From: Deltaproteobacteria bacterium
Lineage (GTDB): Bacteria > Desulfobacterota > Syntrophobacteria > Syntrophobacterales > Thermodesulforhabdaceae
Assembly: GCA_019309115.1 (NCBI GenBank)
Contig: JAFDGW010000019.1
Span: 1 to 49,217 of the forward strand
Reading direction: 5' to 3'
DNA length: 49,217 nt
Shown: in pieces, positions 39,918-49,217 of the stretch
How positions within the stretch are numbered: the first letter of the stretch is position 1
Layout of the letters: each line of letters starts with the position of its first letter
Notes under the pieces: generated by a model
Database searches by the model: none
Told to the model about the DNA's origin: nothing
What the model saw: the letters and a program-made list of their open reading frames with translations, nothing else
Position numbers and translations under genes: made by a program

Positions 39918-40931
39918 ATGTCGTCAAGCGGCAAGAAAACCAGATCGGGTAAGAAGCGAAAAAGAGAAAGTGGGGCATCGGCGTCCAGAAAGCCTTTTCC
40001 ATCTATGTGGGTGGTCGTGGTTTTTCTCTGGATTGGCCTTCTTCTCCTGGCCCATCAGGCTGCAAGGCTTGCCGGGCTGACTCGGAAGGAAGTATCTCCT
40101 GCTTCGCACGAAGAAGCTGCAACAACTGGCAATGATGCCCCCGGCGTAGTTGTCAGGCATCATATCCCCATGGCTGGTGAAAATTCTAAGACCCCGGCGC
40201 CTGCCATGAAACCCCCGGTAAGAGTTGCTTCAGCCGTGATGCCTCCTTCTGGCCGAAAAAAGCACTCAAGAGGCCGCGTCAGCATCATCATTGACGACAT
40301 GGGACGAGACCTGGAAATGGCAAAGAAGTTCCTCGATCTCCCGATTCCTCTTGCCTTTGCAGTGCTGCCCTATGAACCACACACTCGGGAAGTGGCCGAG
40401 ATGGTTCGCAAGCGAGGCCGGGTTTTGCTGCTCCACATGCCTATGGAACCGAAAGGATATCCCAAGGTTAATCCAGGTCCTGGAGCTTTGCTTCTCAGGC
40501 AGAGCCCGGAAGAACAACATCGCCTTTTCCTTCAGGCCTTGAAGCGTGTTCCCGGTGCCGTTGGTGTAAACAATCACATGGGGTCGAGGTTTACTGAAAA
40601 TGAGGAAGCCATGCGGCGGTTTTTAGGGTGGGTTAAAGATGAGGGTTTGTTTTTTATAGATAGCAGGACAACTTCCAGCAGCGTCGCCTGCAGGGTGGCT
40701 TCTGAGGTAGGGGTTTTGTGTTTTAATAGGGGTGTATTTTTAGACCATAGGAGAGATTGGCCTTTTTTCCGGGAGCAACTTGGGGTGTTGCTAAAACTGG
40801 CGGAGAATGGTCAAAATGTGATTGCCATTGGTCATCCTTACATAGAAACCTATAATCGCCTTCGTAACCTAGATAAGATATTTGCGGAATCCAATATAAA
40901 TATAACCAGCTTGTTAGCAGTTGCACTATGA
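39918..40931 (+). CDS. Divergent polysaccharide deacetylase family protein
   Basis: The 337-residue protein has an N-terminal membrane anchor (about 30-50), a low-complexity linker, and a divergent polysaccharide deacetylase (DUF610-like) domain from about residue 118: VSIIIDDMGRDLEMAKKFLD, LPIPLAFAVLPYEPHTREVA, LLLHMPMEPKGYP and GAVGVNNHMGSRFTENEEA. The NHMGS segment carries the metal-site residues. These proteins follow ctpA-type proteases in many deltaproteobacterial genomes and may act on peptidoglycan. Its ATGA overlap with the next gene couples it to the polysaccharide export permease. From about base 40,620 the codons look more AT-rich. Confidence 0.88.
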   Translation: MSSSGKKTRSGKKRKRESGASASRKPFPSMWVVVVFLWIGLLLLAHQAARLAGLTRKEVSPASHEEAATTGNDAPGVVVRHHIPMAGENSKTPAPAMKPPVRVASAVMPPSGRKKHSRGRVSIIIDDMGRDLEMAKKFLDLPIPLAFAVLPYEPHTREVAEMVRKRGRVLLLHMPMEPKGYPKVNPGPGALLLRQSPEEQHRLFLQALKRVPGAVGVNNHMGSRFTENEEAMRRFLGWVKDEGLFFIDSRTTSSSVACRVASEVGVLCFNRGVFLDHRRDWPFFREQLGVLLKLAENGQNVIAIGHPYIETYNRLRNLDKIFAESNINITSLLAVAL

Positions 40932-41734
40932 AAGTAATTCTACACAAAAATGCTATTATTGCCAAGTTGGCTTTGTGTAAAAGTTTAGCTATTCGAGATG
41001 TAAAAGTGCGTTATGCTGGTTCATCCTTGGGTATGTTATGGAATTTTGTGCATCCTTTAGTATTGTTTGTTACCTACTATTTTATTTGTGCGCATATCTT
41101 TAAGCTAAAACTCCAGAATCCTGATTACAGCTATGCAGAATATCTGTTTTCAGGATTGTGGCCGTGGATAGTTTTTTCCGAAGCAATATCGCGGTGCTGT
41201 GGTATTTACGTTGAAAACGCTCAAATTATAAAGAAAGTAATGTTTCCTATTGAAGTCTTGGTTCCTTCTGTAGTGTTCAGCCATACTTTTTACTTGCTTT
41301 TTGGGTTTTTGCCCATCATATTTTATCAGGGCCTGACTGCCGAAACAGTGTCTTTTTTCAATTATATTTCAGGTCTGTGGATATTGGGATTCGGATTGTT
41401 GGCGTTTATTTTTATAACGATCGGATTGGGATGGATCGTGGCAGCGTTCACGGTGTTCTTTCGAGACCTGCAGCAGTTTGTACAAGTTGTTCTCAATCTT
41501 TGGTTTTATGCAACTCCGATTTTGTATCCCGTTGAGCTGGTCCCGACTAAGTTTAGGACAATTTTGGCTTGCAACCCATTGAGTTATATTATAGGGTGTC
41601 TTAGGTGTTACTTATTGGGAGTACACGAGTGTGTGGGCGTTGTGTTAGGCGCCATAGCAGTTAGTTTGGTTGTTTTGGTGGTAGGGATTTCGGTGGTTGG
41701 GAAATTTGATATACACGTGCGAGCAAGTCTGTAG
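40928..41734 (+). CDS. wzm: ABC-2 polysaccharide export permease (Wzm-like)
   Basis: The membrane half of an ABC exporter that moves lipid-linked O-antigen or capsule-like polysaccharide across the inner membrane. The 268-residue product has about six membrane segments (for example MLWNFVHPLVLFVTYYFICA and LVVLVVGISVVG) and the family pattern: IRDVKVRYAGSSLGMLWNFV at the start, LFSGLWPWIVFSEAISRC, VMFPIEVLVPSVVF, and NLWFYATPILYPVELVP. Its ATPase partner is not next to it but lies about 4.5 kb downstream (46299-47495). It overlaps the preceding gene by 4 bases. Confidence 0.9.
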   Translation: MKVILHKNAIIAKLALCKSLAIRDVKVRYAGSSLGMLWNFVHPLVLFVTYYFICAHIFKLKLQNPDYSYAEYLFSGLWPWIVFSEAISRCCGIYVENAQIIKKVMFPIEVLVPSVVFSHTFYLLFGFLPIIFYQGLTAETVSFFNYISGLWILGFGLLAFIFITIGLGWIVAAFTVFFRDLQQFVQVVLNLWFYATPILYPVELVPTKFRTILACNPLSYIIGCLRCYLLGVHECVGVVLGAIAVSLVVLVVGISVVGKFDIHVRASL

Positions 41735-41754
41735 AATATGCGATTAGAAAAAAG

Positions 41755-41784
41755 TTGACGTGTTTGTTTTGAGTGTGGTAATGT
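41755..41784 (+). promoter_or_regulatory. Possible promoter of the Cys-rich secreted protein gene
   Basis: TTGACG (41755-41760), 18-base spacer, TAATGT (41779-41784). The -35 is 5/6, the -10 only partial. It would give a leader of about 150 bases that is very poor in C: about five C residues from 41785 to 41940. Confidence 0.45.
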
Positions 41785-41940
41785 AGGCAAGGTAAGAGTA
41801 GGTTTTGGTGGTATGTTAGCTAGCTGATCAGAAGGGGGTGGTAGTGAGAGGAGGAAAGAGTTAGGTTTTTAGTGGGTTGTAGGTGGAAGAAGGAAAGAAT
41901 GTGTGAAGGAGTTGTAAGTAGCTAAAAGGAGGATGGGGAA

Positions 41941-43098
41941 ATGAAAAAGGTTTCTTTGGCGTTAGCTGTTGCTTGTGTGCTGGTATGGAGTGCCTTTGCA
42001 CAAGCAGATACGATTTTGTTTCCGTGGGTTGTGAAGGATTCTGCTATATCTACGGTGATTTCGCTGGTAAATACTTTTGACCCTGATGATACTGATTTAG
42101 ACTGTAGTAATGTGCGGTTTCATTTAATTTATCTGTACAAAAAGAGTACAGCCAATGAGCAGCTTGAAAAGTGTGATGAGTTCGATTTCTGCGAGCCGAC
42201 AAGTTTTAATGATATTTTAGTATTTGACGCTGCGGCTAACTTTAACAATGGTGCTCCGCTGTTTGGTGATACAGGCGGAGGTAGTGTAACTTACGATACG
42301 GTGCAGGCTAACGATTCGCTGGCGCTACCGGTAGATGGTCCTAGAAGGGCATTCTTATTGGTGAACAATGAATGCTACACCTCTGAGCACTGTGGTGGCG
42401 GGAATGATACACCGGATGGGACTCTTTACGGTGAAGCTATGGTTGTAGATATTTCTAACGGGGCAGCCTGGGGTTACCGAGCCTATAACCCGTATGATGA
42501 AGATCTGTGGTTGAATTTCTTTGACAATGAAGTAGATCCAGCTGATCTGCCACAAGATGCTTACGGGGAAGTGTTGGATGGTCAGGATGAAATTACCAGG
42601 TTGGTTATACAGCCGCCCAACGTGTTTACAACTAAAATATTCGTAACTCCTATTGCTCCTAACGATAGTTGTGTTGACGATGGTACTTCAGTTAATCAGT
42701 GGCGAGGTGATTTGATTGTAAGTTCCTCGTTATATTGTGATGATAATACTACCTTCACCGGTTTGTTTGACATGGATGAGAACTGCATTAGTTTTGACAA
42801 GAAAAAGACAGTTGTTTGCACAGATGCATCTACGTTGGATCATTATGTATCTAATGGTGCGTGGTTAACCTTTGTCAATACAGGTGGTCCGGGATGGGCT
42901 TGGTTTGCGACTTCTGCGCCTGGTGGTAAAGAAAGCTGTACATACACAATTGATATGCCACCTGTAGCCAGCTTTAAGGCTACCAACCAAGCAACGGTGG
43001 GCAAGCTTGAGTACAACATAGGTGTAACCCAGTTCGACGGAAATTCAGTTGATGGTGCTGTTAATAACTTTATTTGGTTGAGAGCTCATAATGATTGA
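41941..43098 (+). CDS. Secreted ten-cysteine protein of unknown function
   Basis: The 385-residue protein has a textbook signal peptide (MKKVSLALAVACVLVWSAFA, cleavage after about residue 22, AQA) and a mature part rich in Asp, Asn, Thr and beta-forming residues with ten cysteines (for example KCDEFDFC and ECYTSEHC), an even number that could make five disulfides. Acidic stretches such as DPDDTDLD could bind calcium. No known domain is seen. A strong AAGGAGG site, its own likely promoter, a long leader and a terminator indicate high, separate expression inside a polysaccharide cluster. It may be a surface or matrix protein. Confidence 0.75.
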   Translation: MKKVSLALAVACVLVWSAFAQADTILFPWVVKDSAISTVISLVNTFDPDDTDLDCSNVRFHLIYLYKKSTANEQLEKCDEFDFCEPTSFNDILVFDAAANFNNGAPLFGDTGGGSVTYDTVQANDSLALPVDGPRRAFLLVNNECYTSEHCGGGNDTPDGTLYGEAMVVDISNGAAWGYRAYNPYDEDLWLNFFDNEVDPADLPQDAYGEVLDGQDEITRLVIQPPNVFTTKIFVTPIAPNDSCVDDGTSVNQWRGDLIVSSSLYCDDNTTFTGLFDMDENCISFDKKKTVVCTDASTLDHYVSNGAWLTFVNTGGPGWAWFATSAPGGKESCTYTIDMPPVASFKATNQATVGKLEYNIGVTQFDGNSVDGAVNNFIWLRAHND

Positions 43099-43167
43099 AA
43101 GGGACGGACACAATTGATTAGGCTGCTGAAGTAGAGTTTGTAAAAGACTAAAGTAAAGCTTGGTGAG

Positions 43168-43191
43168 AAGGGGGAGATAAAAATCCCCCTT
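43168..43191 (+). terminator. Terminator after the Cys-rich protein gene
   Basis: Stem AAGGGGGA (43168-43175) and TCCCCCTT (43184-43191) with an 8-base loop, followed by a T-rich tail. It separates the Cys-rich gene from the Asp-box gene, whose best start lies at 43237. Confidence 0.85.
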
Positions 43192-43236
43192 TTCTTTGTG
43201 CGAAGCTGGTTCATTAGAAATATTTGGAGACAAATC

Positions 43237-44691
43237 ATGGTATTTGTGAGACGGTCGTTGAGCTACAGATCAAAAAAATCGCGGATGAATTTTCTCTTTC
43301 AGAGTTTCTTGGTCAGTGCTTCGATGGATAGAATTAAATACGCATTAACGGTTTGTTTCTTTGTCAACTTTTTGACACTATTTGTTTGTTCGACATGTGT
43401 AGCCATCAATGTCAGTTCTAAAATTTTTCCCGATGTGGTCGATTTAAAAATTCCCAGGTATATCCAAGTTTATGGGGCAAAAGATATACTTTTAACTTAC
43501 GCGGACAGTAAAAACAATATATCAATTGTCAATGCGACCACCAACAAAAAATGGATAGTAAATACAAAACATTCCGGCTTCGATTCTGGGTTAGTTTCAA
43601 TTATATCTGGCGATAATGTATTTTTGGTGTGGAGACGCAAGACGAATGAAAAAAGTTTGTGGTTTTCACAATTCAACCTTATTAAACAGACTATTGGTGA
43701 ACCTATATTGGTAGATAAAACTACCCGACCACTTACACGTATTGATATGGCTAAACTAGGTGGTAAGCTGTTCTTGCTTTGGTATGGAGAATTACCACAT
43801 CGTGGTCGAAATTATTCCATGTATGCGTCTTATTACCCGAACGACTCGAAGACTAATACTTTCAGTAAACCGGTTCGGCTCACCAAAGATTACAAGTGGG
43901 CAATATACCCGAGATTATTAAAGGGTGATAAGGGTGTGTATGCTTTTACGGAAGCGATACGCTATGATAATAAAACCCATGAATTAGTCGTGGCTAAGTT
44001 TGAAAATAACGAATGGCAGCCCTTACGGGTAATTGGTAAAATTGGGGTGATGTCATTATTTTTAAGGGCTATTAAGGTTCAAAACAGGATATGTGTGTTT
44101 TGGTTCAATTTCTACGATGGTGAGCCCGTAACCGAGATGGCATATTCTGACGATGGTGGTGTTACGTGGAAAAGGCATGTTTTCGAGGATACTCGAGGGT
44201 TGGATTTGACCGGACTTCACGTGGCGTCTAATGGTAAAAATAGGTTATATGTGGTTCTCAGTGGGGTTCGTCTTGACAAAGAAGGAGCAGAGGAGGCACA
44301 AGAGGGTAAAAAAGACCTTGTTTATTTCATGTACTCGGGAGATGGTGGTTCCACATGGTCGTCACTGCGGCCCCTTAGACACTATCCTTTTACCCATACC
44401 AGAGCTCATATTCCTAATATTGTTGCCCATGATGATACCGTCGTGGTGGTGTGGAACGATTACCGCAATATAAGAGGCAACCTTTACATGAATTACTCGA
44501 CGGATGGTGGAAAAACATGGCAGGACCATGATATTCCTTTGGAAGAGCCAGGCAAGTACAACACCAGACTTCATTGGGATGTCAATAATTTGAAATACAA
44601 AAATGGAAAGTATTATTTGCTGGCTCATCGCTTTGAGTCAGACCTTTTGGAAAAGGCTCATCCGCTGTTTATTGAATTTCGACTTCCATGA
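43237..44691 (+). CDS. Exported Asp-box (sialidase-fold) protein
   Basis: From ATG 43237 (preceded by TTGGAG) the product has 484 residues with a membrane/export segment at about residues 32-55 (YALTVCFFVNFLTLFVCSTC) and a beta-propeller with three Asp boxes of the S-x-D-x-G-x-T-W type: SDDGGVTW (about 304), SGDGGSTW (about 367), STDGGKTW (about 421). The frame opens at a GTG (43198), but that codon lies in the tail of the preceding terminator. Asp-box propellers include sialidases and other glycosidases; catalytic residues cannot be assigned here, so it may be a glycan-binding protein instead. It stands in the polysaccharide cluster. Confidence 0.75.
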   Translation: MVFVRRSLSYRSKKSRMNFLFQSFLVSASMDRIKYALTVCFFVNFLTLFVCSTCVAINVSSKIFPDVVDLKIPRYIQVYGAKDILLTYADSKNNISIVNATTNKKWIVNTKHSGFDSGLVSIISGDNVFLVWRRKTNEKSLWFSQFNLIKQTIGEPILVDKTTRPLTRIDMAKLGGKLFLLWYGELPHRGRNYSMYASYYPNDSKTNTFSKPVRLTKDYKWAIYPRLLKGDKGVYAFTEAIRYDNKTHELVVAKFENNEWQPLRVIGKIGVMSLFLRAIKVQNRICVFWFNFYDGEPVTEMAYSDDGGVTWKRHVFEDTRGLDLTGLHVASNGKNRLYVVLSGVRLDKEGAEEAQEGKKDLVYFMYSGDGGSTWSSLRPLRHYPFTHTRAHIPNIVAHDDTVVVVWNDYRNIRGNLYMNYSTDGGKTWQDHDIPLEEPGKYNTRLHWDVNNLKYKNGKYYLLAHRFESDLLEKAHPLFIEFRLP

Positions 44692-44703
44692 GTGAGGTTT
44701 GTC

Positions 44704-45210
44704 ATGAAGAAAATGGAGCGTTCGATAGATAGTTGTCTCCGATTTTTTCCGTTGATATCCCTTTTGATGATTTTTTCCGTTGTGATCGGTTGTTCCCATA
44801 TGGCAAGTAATAGGAATCTCGTTGATGATTTGGGGTCTCCCACAAAGACGGAGTTATTGAAACAAAGGGCAGCGGAATTCTGGGAAGCTATGGTTTCTGG
44901 AGATTTGGCCAAAGCGTATGAATTATATGATCCGTTTTTGAGAGCACGCATGGGGGTGCATGAGTTCATAGCAAAGCATAGCGCGGTGAAATACAGAACC
45001 TTTGAGATTAAGAATGTGAAGGTTGAAGGGAATATAGGGATAGTTACTCTGGAGGTCACTTACGAAGTGCCAAAGCTAAAGGTTTTCAAGAGGGAGATGT
45101 ATATCCCCGAGAAAACTGAAGAGTTTGAGGATAGATGGTTGTACGTTTACGATAATTGGTACAAGGAATATTATCTCAGGTTTTTTAAACATGGTATTGC
45201 GTTCTACTAA
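44704..45210 (+). CDS. Predicted lipoprotein of unknown function
   Basis: From ATG 44704 (GAGG upstream) the 168-residue protein has a lipoprotein signal with lipobox VVIGC (Cys near residue 30), then a helical segment AAEFWEAMVSGDLAKAYELY and a beta-rich part (YRTFEIKNVKVEGNIGIVTL). That helix-then-sheet layout resembles an NTF2-like or DUF4440-like fold, with no catalytic residues evident. The preceding gene ends 12 bases earlier and the next gene overlaps its end by 20 bases, so it is part of the cluster operon. Confidence 0.7.
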   Translation: MKKMERSIDSCLRFFPLISLLMIFSVVIGCSHMASNRNLVDDLGSPTKTELLKQRAAEFWEAMVSGDLAKAYELYDPFLRARMGVHEFIAKHSAVKYRTFEIKNVKVEGNIGIVTLEVTYEVPKLKVFKREMYIPEKTEEFEDRWLYVYDNWYKEYYLRFFKHGIAFY

Positions 45211-46333
45211 ACCTGTGATACTGATTGTACATCCGTCTAGCGGATGGGGAGGAGCAGAACGCACCAGCGTAAATATTGTCAAAATATGCCGGGAATATCA
45301 TTTCCCGGCTCTTTTATTAAGTAACCAGATACGTTTTAGAAATTCGGCTGGAGATAACCTTTATTTGGATAGGAATTTTCAGAGTTGGTTCGGGAAAACA
45401 AAGCGCATCCTAAATGATCTTTTGCGATTGTACCGTTTGTGTTGTTCGTTGAGGCCACGAATTATAATTGGTATGATGCCTTACGGTGGTTTTTTGGCTT
45501 CTGTGATTACCAAATTTTTGCCTTTCGAGTGTAAAAGTATTGCTAGTCCCCGAGGTTCATGCAAATATTTTTTAAAGTATTTTGTAAAATCTTCGCTGGA
45601 AAAAGCAAAGTATAAGTTTTTTTTCTCATTAGCTTGTGGATTGGCTGATTACTTCCTATCGCCGTCGAGGGCATCGATAAAGGATTATGTTTCGTATTTT
45701 CATGTGAATTTGAGTAGATGTTTTCATATTCCAAATGCAGTTGAAGTTCCAAAATTAAATTATGATTATTTATTCGATAGGCGATTGTCTACCTTTGATT
45801 CACCGGAGCTAGTTTGGCTGGGCAGATTTTCAGAGGAAAAACGATTAGACCTGATACTGGAAAGTATAAAGCGCTTGAATTGTGAGAAAGCGTCGTTATA
45901 TATGGCAGGAGAAGATTGTGCTGTGAAGTTTCGCTTGAAACGCATAGCACGTGACTACGGAATATCGGATAGAATTATTTTTTTTGGATATCAGGAGGAT
46001 GTGTATTCATTTTTAATGCCCCGTCATATATTCGTACACGCCTGTTTGTTTGAAGAGTTTGGTTACGCTCTGCTTGAAGCCATGAGTGTGGGACTTCCTG
46101 TTGTTTCTATGGATTGCCCATACGGTCCGAGAGAAATTTTGGACAACGGAAAATACGGTATTCTGGTCAAGGACTATAATGAGATGGCATCAGCAATAGA
46201 CTCGATCGCCGCGGATAAAGACTTTTGGCTACTTTTAGCAAATCGAGCTCGCGAACGAGTACGACACTACGACTTTTGGACTGTTGGACGATGTTATTAT
46301 GAGATGTTCTCAACCATTTCAGAGAAGTTCTAA
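45191..46333 (+). CDS. Glycosyltransferase family 4 (group 1)
   Basis: A GT-B-fold retaining glycosyltransferase that adds a sugar from a nucleotide donor to the growing glycan. From ATG 45191 the product has 380 residues: N-terminal Rossmann domain with VHPSSGWGGAERTSVNIVKI, and C-terminal donor domain with LVWLGRFSEEKRLDLILESI and the EEFGYALLEAMSVGLPVVSM motif that holds the catalytic Glu pair (E-x7-E). The frame opens at 45125, but the extra residues overlap the lipoprotein gene and are not family-like. Donor and acceptor are unknown. Confidence 0.9.
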   Translation: MVLRSTKPVILIVHPSSGWGGAERTSVNIVKICREYHFPALLLSNQIRFRNSAGDNLYLDRNFQSWFGKTKRILNDLLRLYRLCCSLRPRIIIGMMPYGGFLASVITKFLPFECKSIASPRGSCKYFLKYFVKSSLEKAKYKFFFSLACGLADYFLSPSRASIKDYVSYFHVNLSRCFHIPNAVEVPKLNYDYLFDRRLSTFDSPELVWLGRFSEEKRLDLILESIKRLNCEKASLYMAGEDCAVKFRLKRIARDYGISDRIIFFGYQEDVYSFLMPRHIFVHACLFEEFGYALLEAMSVGLPVVSMDCPYGPREILDNGKYGILVKDYNEMASAIDSIAADKDFWLLLANRARERVRHYDFWTVGRCYYEMFSTISEKF

Positions 46334-47495
46334 ACCAATAATTGAATTGGATAGGGTAACTAAATATTACGCCATTTACAATAGTCCGTTTCATAGGCTG
46401 AAGGAGGTATTTACAAAACGTAATTACCATCAGATACATTGCGCTTTGCATGAGGTTACTTTAAGAGTTTACCCAGGAGAAGGTGTAGGAATTATAGGAG
46501 ATAACGGAGCTGGAAAAAGCACTTTGCTTCAGATTGTTGCTGGAACGATTACTCCGTCTTCGGGAAGTGTAAAGAGGAGAGGTAACGTATTAGCAATTCT
46601 TGAGCTGGGCATTGGATTCCATCCTGAGTTATCTGGAATTGAGAATATTTTCAATTATGCAAGATTGTTAGGTTATTCTGAAGGCAAAATAAAGAGAGTT
46701 CTACCAGAAATAATAGAATTCGCAGAGCTGGGTGACTTTGTGAAGTGTCCTGTAAAAACGTATTCTTCTGGAATGTTAATGAGATTAGCCTTTTCGCTTA
46801 TAGTGCACCTGAACCCAGATGTATTGGTTATAGACGAAGCCTTGTCTGTTGGAGACGTTGGTTTTCAGAAAAAGTGCATTGATTACATTTTAAATTACAG
46901 AAAATGCGGGGGAACATTGCTGTTTTGTTCTCATGCTCTTTATCAAGTTTCGAGGATTAGTGATAGGGTCATATGGCTGGATAAGGGTAGGGTAAGGATG
47001 GAAGGTAATCCGGAAGAAGTAATATCGGCATATGAATGGTACGTGTTGAAAAGGGAAAGGGAGGCAGAAAATAACCGGAGGCAGGAAAAGGGTAATTTGT
47101 CCTCAAACAACATAGTAAAGGTTGAAAAATTTTATATCCAAAATCGTCCTCCCATAAAAAGAGGAGATGATATATCATTTGTTGTAAAAGTTGCGGCTAT
47201 TAGAGATAATGTGGCTTACCATGTTGCGTTATCCATAAAAGTTCCAACGGGGTGGGGAGTTTTTGTCGCTGCGACGCATTTTGATAACATGAAAGCTTTG
47301 CGAGGTGATAAAATTATAAGAATAAAGTTTCCTAAGGTTCCACTGCTGGGCGGTTATTATTATGCGGTAGTCAGAATATTGGATAACTCTGGTATGGTGT
47401 TATTTGATCAAAAAGAGATAGGGCCGTTTTATATTGAGCGAACTCACGGGGAGATTGGGACATGTTATTTGCCACATCATTGGGAAATTACATAA
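46299..47495 (+). CDS. wzt: Polysaccharide ABC exporter ATPase with Wzt-like C-terminal domain
   Basis: The ATPase half of the exporter, partner of the Wzm-like permease at 40928-41734. From ATG 46299 it has 398 residues: Walker A GIIGDNGAGKSTLLQIVAG, signature YSSGMLMRLAFS, and Walker B VLVIDEALSVGD in the first 240, then a C-terminal beta-sandwich (about 275-395, VEKFYIQNRPPIKRGDDISF to YIERTHGEIGTCYLP) that in Wzt recognises the terminal sugar or cap of the polysaccharide before export. The start overlaps the glycosyltransferase gene by 35 bases; an alternative start five codons upstream (46284) exists. Confidence 0.93.
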   Translation: MRCSQPFQRSSKPIIELDRVTKYYAIYNSPFHRLKEVFTKRNYHQIHCALHEVTLRVYPGEGVGIIGDNGAGKSTLLQIVAGTITPSSGSVKRRGNVLAILELGIGFHPELSGIENIFNYARLLGYSEGKIKRVLPEIIEFAELGDFVKCPVKTYSSGMLMRLAFSLIVHLNPDVLVIDEALSVGDVGFQKKCIDYILNYRKCGGTLLFCSHALYQVSRISDRVIWLDKGRVRMEGNPEEVISAYEWYVLKREREAENNRRQEKGNLSSNNIVKVEKFYIQNRPPIKRGDDISFVVKVAAIRDNVAYHVALSIKVPTGWGVFVAATHFDNMKALRGDKIIRIKFPKVPLLGGYYYAVVRILDNSGMVLFDQKEIGPFYIERTHGEIGTCYLPHHWEIT

Positions 47496-48541
47496 AGAGT
47501 ACGGTGGGTCGTCTGCTAAGGTTGCATAAGCCTCATCAATATAACCATATTTGTTCAATGTATCCCAGAGCTGTTTTTATGGAAGTTACAAATTACTGTA
47601 ATTTAAACTGTGTGATGTGTACGTTTCACAGTAAGGAATCTCCCTTTAGAGGAAACGGTCGATTTTCGCGATCGAAAGGTTTTATGTCGGAGTCTCTGGC
47701 TTACAAAATTATCGATGAACTCGGCAGTTCGGACGTACCGATATGGCTTGCCATGCATGGTGCGGGTGAGCCTCTGTTACATCCGAAAATAGAAATGTTC
47801 ATAAGGCGGGCCAGTAAGTACGATAACCTTAATGTAGGGTTCCTTACAAATGGGATGTTGCTGACCGATGAAAAAATCAAAGCTTTACTAGACTCAGGTA
47901 TCAAATGGTTGAGTGTTAGTATCGATGGTTTAAGAGCTGACCTGATGGAGAAATACAGAAAAGGGGCCAGTTTTTCTAAGATACACTCGAATACAATGCA
48001 CCTTATACAGGCTGTGACTTCCAGAGAAGAAAAGCCCTTTCTGCATGTTAATATGACGGTTCAGAAAGAAATGGAAGCGGATGTGGATCAATTTGTTGAT
48101 TATTGGTTACAGTACGTTGACCAGGTTTCTGTTTCACCCTGCCGTCCTATTGGTAGTCGCAAAAGTCCACTTCTACCAGAAGGCGTAAGACGAGAACCAT
48201 GTTATATGCTGTTCGAAACAATGGTTATTTTTTGGGATGGGTCGGTAGGTTTGTGTTGTGAAGATTGGTTTAATTGGGGACAAATGGGTTCAGTTGAACT
48301 TAACTCCCTGTATGAAGTATGGCATGGGAAGAAGTTCAGCAAGGTAAGAGAATTACATCTTAAGGGGAAATACTCCAAGTTAATGTTATGTAAAGAATGC
48401 GATATCTGGTTTAACAAGACACCGAAAGTCTATTTTGATACCAATCGGAATTGTGAAGTCGTGGTTAATGCGTGGCAAACCATTTATCGAAAGGTGAATA
48501 AAGCAAAGTCAGAAACGATTAGGTTGGCTGATGCCTTATAG
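47462..48541 (+). CDS. Radical SAM protein with SPASM domain
   Basis: The 359-residue protein has the radical SAM motif CNLNCVMC (CxxxCxxC, about residues 42-49) and the family segments GAGEPLLHPKI, NVGFLTNGMLLT and KWLSVSIDGLRADLMEKYR. The C-terminal part has additional cysteines (GLCCED, LCKECDIW) typical of a SPASM or twitch auxiliary-cluster domain. Such enzymes modify peptides or sugars. In this cluster the substrate may be a glycan or the secreted proteins nearby, but no precursor peptide is obvious. A GGGGAG site precedes the ATG, and it overlaps the wzt-like gene by 34 bases. Confidence 0.88.
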   Translation: MLFATSLGNYIKSTVGRLLRLHKPHQYNHICSMYPRAVFMEVTNYCNLNCVMCTFHSKESPFRGNGRFSRSKGFMSESLAYKIIDELGSSDVPIWLAMHGAGEPLLHPKIEMFIRRASKYDNLNVGFLTNGMLLTDEKIKALLDSGIKWLSVSIDGLRADLMEKYRKGASFSKIHSNTMHLIQAVTSREEKPFLHVNMTVQKEMEADVDQFVDYWLQYVDQVSVSPCRPIGSRKSPLLPEGVRREPCYMLFETMVIFWDGSVGLCCEDWFNWGQMGSVELNSLYEVWHGKKFSKVRELHLKGKYSKLMLCKECDIWFNKTPKVYFDTNRNCEVVVNAWQTIYRKVNKAKSETIRLADAL

Positions 48542-49145
48542 CAATATTGAACAAATGCCAATTATAATAAACGAAATAAAACGGCATAATCCTAATTCTA
48601 TACTTGATGTTGGATGTGGAATAGGATTGTATGGAATTTTAATTAGGGTTTTTTTGGAGCTCTACGACGATGCTGAGGGTTTTTTGGATCGGCTTTTAAC
48701 CAGAAACTGGCAAATAAGAGTAGATGCTGTGGAAGGTTATTATCCTTATTTGGAGTTCATACCTGCCTGGGTTTATGATCATATATGGAATGCAGATGTA
48801 TTTGAGATTTTTCCGCACATTAAAGATAAAGAATACGATATGGCAATAGCAATTGCCATTTTGGAACATTTAGATCGAGAGGCAGGCCATGTCTTTTTGG
48901 AACAGTTAAAAAGGATTGCCAGAGTTGTTATTGTTTCTGTTCCCGCATTTTGGGGTCCCCAGGTGGTTCCCGCAAACCCCTTGGAAAATCACAGATCCCA
49001 CTGGACGAAAGAAGATTTTATACAACATGATTTTACAAGTTTTCTGCCATCTCCCCGTTCGACTATAGCCATTTACAACACCGAACACAGGGAACCTTCA
49101 AAGTATAGTGACCCCCAAGTGGACTGGACCAGCAATAAGCGATAG
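48531..49145 (+). CDS. Class I SAM-dependent methyltransferase
   Basis: The 204-residue protein has the SAM-binding loop ILDVGCGIGLYGILI (about 24-38), an acidic residue after strand 2 (RVDAVEGYYPYLEF), and YDMAIAIAILEHLDRE as the motif IV region. The fold is complete for a small Rossmann methyltransferase. It overlaps the radical SAM gene by 11 bases. In glycan clusters such enzymes often methylate sugars, sometimes as a chain terminator recognised by a Wzt-type C-terminal domain. The target is inferred only from context. Confidence 0.82.
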   Translation: MPYSNIEQMPIIINEIKRHNPNSILDVGCGIGLYGILIRVFLELYDDAEGFLDRLLTRNWQIRVDAVEGYYPYLEFIPAWVYDHIWNADVFEIFPHIKDKEYDMAIAIAILEHLDREAGHVFLEQLKRIARVVIVSVPAFWGPQVVPANPLENHRSHWTKEDFIQHDFTSFLPSPRSTIAIYNTEHREPSKYSDPQVDWTSNKR

Positions 49146-49169
49146 ATTTAGTTTGTGAAAGGGGGATGA

Positions 49170-49217
49170 ATGATGGAAGGGAAGTCGGTTAAGCCAGTTC
49201 GGATGCAAAGATGGACT
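49170..49217 (+). CDS. Start of a further cluster gene (partial)
   Basis: A GGGGG ribosome-binding site (49161-49165) precedes two consecutive ATG codons at 49170 and 49173; the frame runs open to the window end (about 16 codons, beginning MMEGKSVKPVRM). Too little is present to assign a product. It follows the methyltransferase by 24 bases and probably belongs to the same operon. Confidence 0.5.
   Translation, partial: MMEGKSVKPVRMQRWT

Follow-up and report, generated by a model that had tools for sequence, protein, structure and literature searches.

The eight genes at positions 40928 to 49145 on the plus strand of our window, by which we mean the whole 49,217-nucleotide stretch of DNA that was analysed, probably constitute one previously undescribed system, in which an ABC exporter for glycans is combined with a secreted protein, two further exported proteins and a radical SAM enzyme. 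In the literature searched, mostly outside subscription journals, no description of this gene set was found. The original prediction had inferred a joint pathway, and this idea is now well supported, since the set recurs both within the window's family and in the Nitrospirota. As to its product, we tentatively propose that a dedicated surface-assembly system builds a glycan-bearing protein coat, a reading that we regard as quite possible but far from settled.

Sequence and Pfam matches place all eight genes where they had been predicted, in the order wzm, secreted protein, Asp-box protein, lipoprotein, glycosyltransferase (GT4), wzt, radical SAM/SPASM enzyme (rSAM) and class I SAM methyltransferase (MT). 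From the Asp-box gene onward the genes abut or overlap (gaps of 0, -20, -35, -34 and -11 bp), and the secreted-protein gene is set apart by 206 bp upstream and 99 bp downstream. Between the wzm stop and the wzt ATG lie 4564 bp, in agreement with the roughly 4.5 kb proposed earlier. The window's contig terminates at 49217; since in the related genome G002, where the block runs on to a second contig, MT is the last gene and is followed by unrelated convergent genes, the window contains the complete cluster.

The window's family comprises five genomes including its own (G000), and the block is found in the same order in the four others. G001, G002 and G004 carry the complete series from the secreted protein to MT, and G003 follows it as far as wzt and is without rSAM and MT. 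In G000, G002 and G003 wzm lies immediately upstream of the block; in G001 and G004 it remains behind the ftsE-ftsX-envC-ctp-deacetylase genes, with the block at another locus on a different contig. As the five genomes share ancestry they are not five independent cases, and the relocation of wzm together with the recurrence in a second phylum is the stronger evidence. The relatives' genes are longest-ORF calls, and most of the named relatives are metagenome-assembled genomes, several of them on short contigs. The secreted-protein family is rare among the sampled genomes of both phyla, being found in 6 of 395 from the window's phylum and 6 of 296 from the phylum of G434 (the genome of locus L046, Thermodesulfovibrionales).

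The Nitrospirota set consists of the secreted protein, the Asp-box protein, an NTF2-like lipoprotein, GT4, Wzm, Wzt and a radical SAM enzyme of a different subfamily than the window's, joined in one case by MT. Nitrospirae bacterium RBG_13_39_12 (L044) has, in this order, secreted protein, Asp-box protein, lipoprotein, wzt, Gfo/Idh dehydrogenase, rSAM, wzm, GT4 and a second secreted protein, and L046 has secretin, secreted protein, Asp-box protein, lipoprotein, wzt, wzm and GT4. In G614 (L158) a secretin and the secreted protein are followed by a fused Asp-box/lipoprotein gene, wzm, GT4, rSAM, wzt and MT, the last with 45% identity to the window's MT and 53.5% to the closest MT of the window's family. 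G543 and G653 show related arrangements, in which a PIG-L deacetylase is encoded close by. The genome-neighbourhood check proposed with the prediction, which would have spoken for chance had the Cys-rich, Asp-box and radical SAM genes been at unrelated loci, shows that the set recurs together. The exported trio of secreted, Asp-box and NTF2-like protein also exists without a nearby wzm/wzt (L072, L157, L039). Fusions of the Asp-box protein with the NTF2-like protein in L039, L072, L074 and L158 predict that the two act as one unit.

Several neighbourhoods of these relatives show further features. The fusion in L074 (8838-10517; G207, a distant family of the same phylum) adjoins deacetylase-ctp-envC-ftsX-ftsE, housekeeping genes that are also the neighbours of wzm in the window's family. 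In G002, the paralogous loci L037 (C153) and L077 (C200) keep wzm, an unrelated secreted protein and the NTF2-like protein, with an FG-GAP-repeat lipoprotein in place of the Asp-box protein; L037 also retains part of wzt. A large TPR-repeat protein is encoded after the lipoprotein gene in L157 (4945-7149) and L159 (598-2799), and one of the two has a weak PMT_2 match (E 5e-4, below the cut-off), which may hint at protein glycosylation. Four Nitrospirota loci (L046 2451-4541, L158 10990-13161, L162 11565-13583, L163 11882-13846) encode GspD-like secretins, all from one subfamily, near the secreted-protein gene. As a general part of the cluster the secretin was rejected, because the genomes of the window's family give only partial matches with far lower scores, and it is at most a lineage-specific partner.

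For the exporter itself, the permease gene wzm (40928-41734) is recognised by PF01061 (53.9 bits versus a cut-off of 26.9), with Wzm/RfbD and KpsM as the next best models. Its counterpart wzt (46299-47495, ATG at 46299) encodes an ATPase with an ABC_tran match of 66 bits, over the cut-off, and TagH and Wzt as best NCBIfam matches. The match of its C-terminal domain to Wzt_C is weak (20-23 bits, 23.2 at best, versus a cut-off of 30.4); among seven aligned C-terminal domains six match Wzt_C, the best with an E value of 1e-8, and a profile search of this domain against the PDB returned chance-level hits only. It is plausible that this domain reads a modification at the chain end.

Genes for wzm and wzt are usually adjacent, but this is not essential. 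In the window they are not side by side, in G001 and G004 they are on different contigs, and in L046 they are adjacent. Every other wzm found in G001 and G004 has an adjoining wzt, so that the lone wzm and the cluster wzt alone were found without a partner; furthermore, in both genomes the lone wzm groups with the window's wzm (support 99/96). On these two grounds the split Wzm and Wzt are most likely a real pair. Moreover, in trees of seven and of ten rows the cluster Wzts from the two phyla come out as a single clade (support 100/100 and 93/91, respectively) that is separate from the other Wzts of the same genomes. The window's genome holds a second Wzm/Wzt pair (L038, G000:C59), again with a glycosyltransferase gene between the subunits, and this pair adjoins ABC genes resembling type I secretion.

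The secreted protein (41941-43098) carries a signal peptide that ends in AQA|DT, and its composition is acidic (55 D+E versus 20 K+R). No match was found in Pfam, NCBIfam or the PDB, and an AlphaFold model from seven rows gave a pLDDT of 38.6, too low to predict the fold from this alignment. One of its 11 cysteines falls within the signal peptide, which confirms the predicted ten cysteines for the mature form; their value as a trait did not hold up. Cysteine richness was rejected as a defining feature, because homologues contain 3-11 cysteines and just two cysteine columns are invariant. It is a probable coat or structural protein. A terminator-like hairpin follows its gene (43168-43191 in the window) at 10 of 11 loci, with energies of -14.6 to -27 kcal/mol; among 250 shuffles of the ten regions one reached the observed value, and among 30 control positions one was as low as -14.6. 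Such a pattern would be expected of a structural gene with its own transcript, and S-layer genes have been described as monocistronic (PMC2943079). High expression, judged by codon adaptation to ribosomal genes, was rejected because the ranks were inconsistent (4/49, 34/41, 13/36, 5/61). Upstream, a putative leader (41735-41940) contains a TTGAC motif (41755-41759) and a GA-rich AAGGGGGTG box that are conserved in an alignment of the five upstream regions of the family, the box being located in the window by its 13-mer (GAAGGGGGTGGTA, 41831-41843). No Rfam model matched the leader at gathering score, and a sigma-70 promoter scan performed no better than on shuffles. The GAAGGGGGTG box was rejected as a genome-wide element, as each genome contains the 13-mer 0-3 times and the remaining sites have no evident gene type in common.

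Directly after the hairpin, the Asp-box (BNR) gene (43198-44691) encodes an exported propeller-type protein with three perfect Asp-boxes versus 0.03 expected in shuffles, repeats that it would share with the Asp-box sialidases, and with a BNR_2 match just under the cut-off (30.6 versus 31.4 bits); its true start may be a later ATG at about 43285 or 43324. Such propellers are common in carbohydrate-active proteins. The lipoprotein (44692-45210) has a lipobox cysteine that is invariant among relatives, and its AlphaFold model shows a confident core (pLDDT above 85) with an NTF2-like fold. Two structures are tied as its nearest matches, the PBP5 N-terminal domain (Z 11.9, rmsd 2.7, 113 aligned) and, with Z 11.6, rmsd 3.1 and 114 aligned, a ketosteroid-isomerase-like protein; a fold in common does not indicate a function.

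The sole glycosyltransferase of the cluster is GT4 (45191-46333, ATG at 45191; PF00534). Its gene contains an in-frame T8 tract at 45617-45624; in both relatives from genus g2, G001 and G004 (L033 at about 14234, L035 at about 12823), the gene is split into two frames at the identical spot by a run of T9 or T10 followed by AA, and the downstream half remains conserved. This split is a candidate for transcriptional slippage or phase variation, or for an assembly error. The last gene, MT (48531-49145), has weak Methyltransf_23/MetW matches and a conserved position, following rSAM in the window's family and wzt in G614.

The radical SAM enzyme (47462-48541) carries a CX3CX2C motif and four conserved auxiliary-cluster cysteines (247, 265, 310, 313). 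In a profile search its best solved relatives were BtrN, MoaA and the cytosylglucuronate decarboxylase BlsE. The nearest relatives outside the window's family belong to wzm-wzt-rSAM units (G078, G325) with no secreted protein, and in G096 the order is wzm, B12-binding radical SAM, wzt and rSAM, again with no secreted protein. Two more distant relatives adjoin, judged by eye, an apparent aminotransferase gene and one of the asparagine-synthase type. Against curated NCBIfam maturase families the best scores were 104.7 of 400 and 99.5 of 380 bits, so that the cut-offs were not reached. The wzt-neighbouring relatives together with the sugar-acting solved relatives favour a sugar or glycan substrate. 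Of the two roles suggested beforehand, an unusual sugar or a glycan-protein conjugate, the former therefore gains from the likeness to BtrN/BlsE and the association with wzm/wzt, and for the latter no transferase was found in the cluster. The window's enzyme shares with BtrN and BlsE a single set of auxiliary-cluster cysteines; these two serve antibiotic synthesis, whereas the window's rSAM family is tied to a Wzm/Wzt exporter.

The gene set, its recurrence, the Wzt clade, the fusions and the hairpin are observed facts. From the parallel with ABC systems that recognise chain ends (PMC11231755) and with S-layer glycosylation (PMC2943079), we infer each biochemical step, as well as the physical link between glycan and protein, of the following mechanism. 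A lipid-linked glycan would be assembled by GT4 and glycosyltransferases encoded elsewhere, and one of its sugars, probably at the end of the chain, would be modified by rSAM and MT. Recognition of this modified end would fall to the C-terminal domain of Wzt, and Wzm/Wzt would move the chain to the periplasm. The secreted protein, acidic and translated from a transcript of its own, would leave the cytoplasm via Sec, and the Asp-box protein and the NTF2-like lipoprotein could bind glycan and/or protein at the envelope in order to join, hold or present them. The outcome would be a glycan-bearing protein coat, comparable to S-layer glycosylation but in a Gram-negative setting. What this scheme chiefly lacks is a transferase: a Pfam search found no oligosaccharyl:S-layer-protein transferase among the eight genes. 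It could be supplied by Wzy_C proteins encoded elsewhere in the genome, as this family, which includes O-antigen ligases, is present in 7 of 7 genomes tested. In a still more specific version, which in our opinion is doubtful, an undescribed machine of Gram-negative type would link the ABC-exported glycan, once tailored by the radical SAM enzyme, covalently to a secreted coat protein dedicated to this purpose, and the Asp-box protein and the NTF2-like lipoprotein would form a novel complex for assembly or for transferring glycan to protein.

In comparison with the S-layer glycosylation (slg) cluster of Geobacillus stearothermophilus (PMC2943079), both have a Wzm/Wzt exporter, a glycosyltransferase, a methyltransferase and a surface-protein gene nearby, which is separately transcribed there and, given its terminator-like hairpin, may be so here. 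In contrast to slg, the window's cluster has no oligosaccharyl transferase or polyprenol initiating enzyme, adds the Asp-box protein, the NTF2-like lipoprotein and the radical SAM enzyme, and belongs to a Gram-negative-type host with at most a putative S-layer. In ABC-transporter-dependent O-polysaccharide pathways the chain end is recognised by the carbohydrate-binding module of Wzt (PMC11231755, PMC3482155). These pathways likewise have Wzm, a Wzt with a C-terminal domain and a methyltransferase as possible terminator, whereas the window's set keeps wzm and wzt apart, has one glycosyltransferase and includes three exported proteins and a radical SAM enzyme.

For one system we count the conserved set and order in four family genomes, the Nitrospirota recurrence, the single Wzt clade, the lone wzm and wzt as sole unpaired members, the wzm-wzt-rSAM units, the likeness to BtrN/BlsE, the Asp-box/NTF2-like fusions, and the hairpin at 10 of 11 loci, which matches monocistronic S-layer genes (PMC2943079). 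Against it stand the lack of an oligosaccharyl transferase or ligase in the cluster, the single glycosyltransferase, the trio without wzm/wzt at L072, L157 and L039, the inconsistent codon bias, the failure to predict a fold for the secreted protein, the other rSAM subfamily in Nitrospirota, and G003 without rSAM and MT. A rival reading is an ordinary LPS O-antigen or capsule exporter that delivers its glycan to LPS or the medium, next to a trio that is a separate envelope system, co-inherited and co-located without acting on the glycan. That the two halves are separable in both directions and that Wzy_C proteins occur in all seven tested genomes speaks for such an arrangement, but the halves are joined repeatedly in two phyla with a single Wzt clade, and we consider it somewhat unlikely.

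Unlikely, too, is a trio that binds, trims or anchors the exported polysaccharide without a covalent conjugate, the secreted protein then being a glycan-holding matrix protein. The frequency of Asp-box propellers in carbohydrate-active proteins, the fusions with the NTF2-like protein and the PIG-L deacetylase near some relatives' loci would all fit; however, there is no catalytic assignment, and the Pfam match of the Asp-box protein is just under the cut-off. SPASM enzymes commonly modify peptides, and the weak NCBIfam matches are to such families, so rSAM might act on the secreted protein, as with peptide natural products. This is very improbable, given that all these matches are far under cut-off, the closest relatives adjoin wzt with no secreted protein, the cysteine number of the secreted protein is not conserved and the best solved relatives include sugar-acting enzymes. 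Finally, the separation of the usually adjacent wzm and wzt might point to a chance grouping, but the order is conserved in the family even after relocation and the set recurs in a second phylum, which refutes this explanation.

The cluster links an ABC glycan exporter, in two phyla, with a constant group of exported proteins. It also indicates that the two subunits of a single exporter, Wzm and Wzt, need not be encoded at one locus. Should glycan and protein prove to be joined, the system would represent a Gram-negative route to glycosylated protein coats via the Wzm/Wzt pathway, and two envelope proteins, a subfamily of radical SAM enzymes and a secreted family that has no name so far would gain a role.
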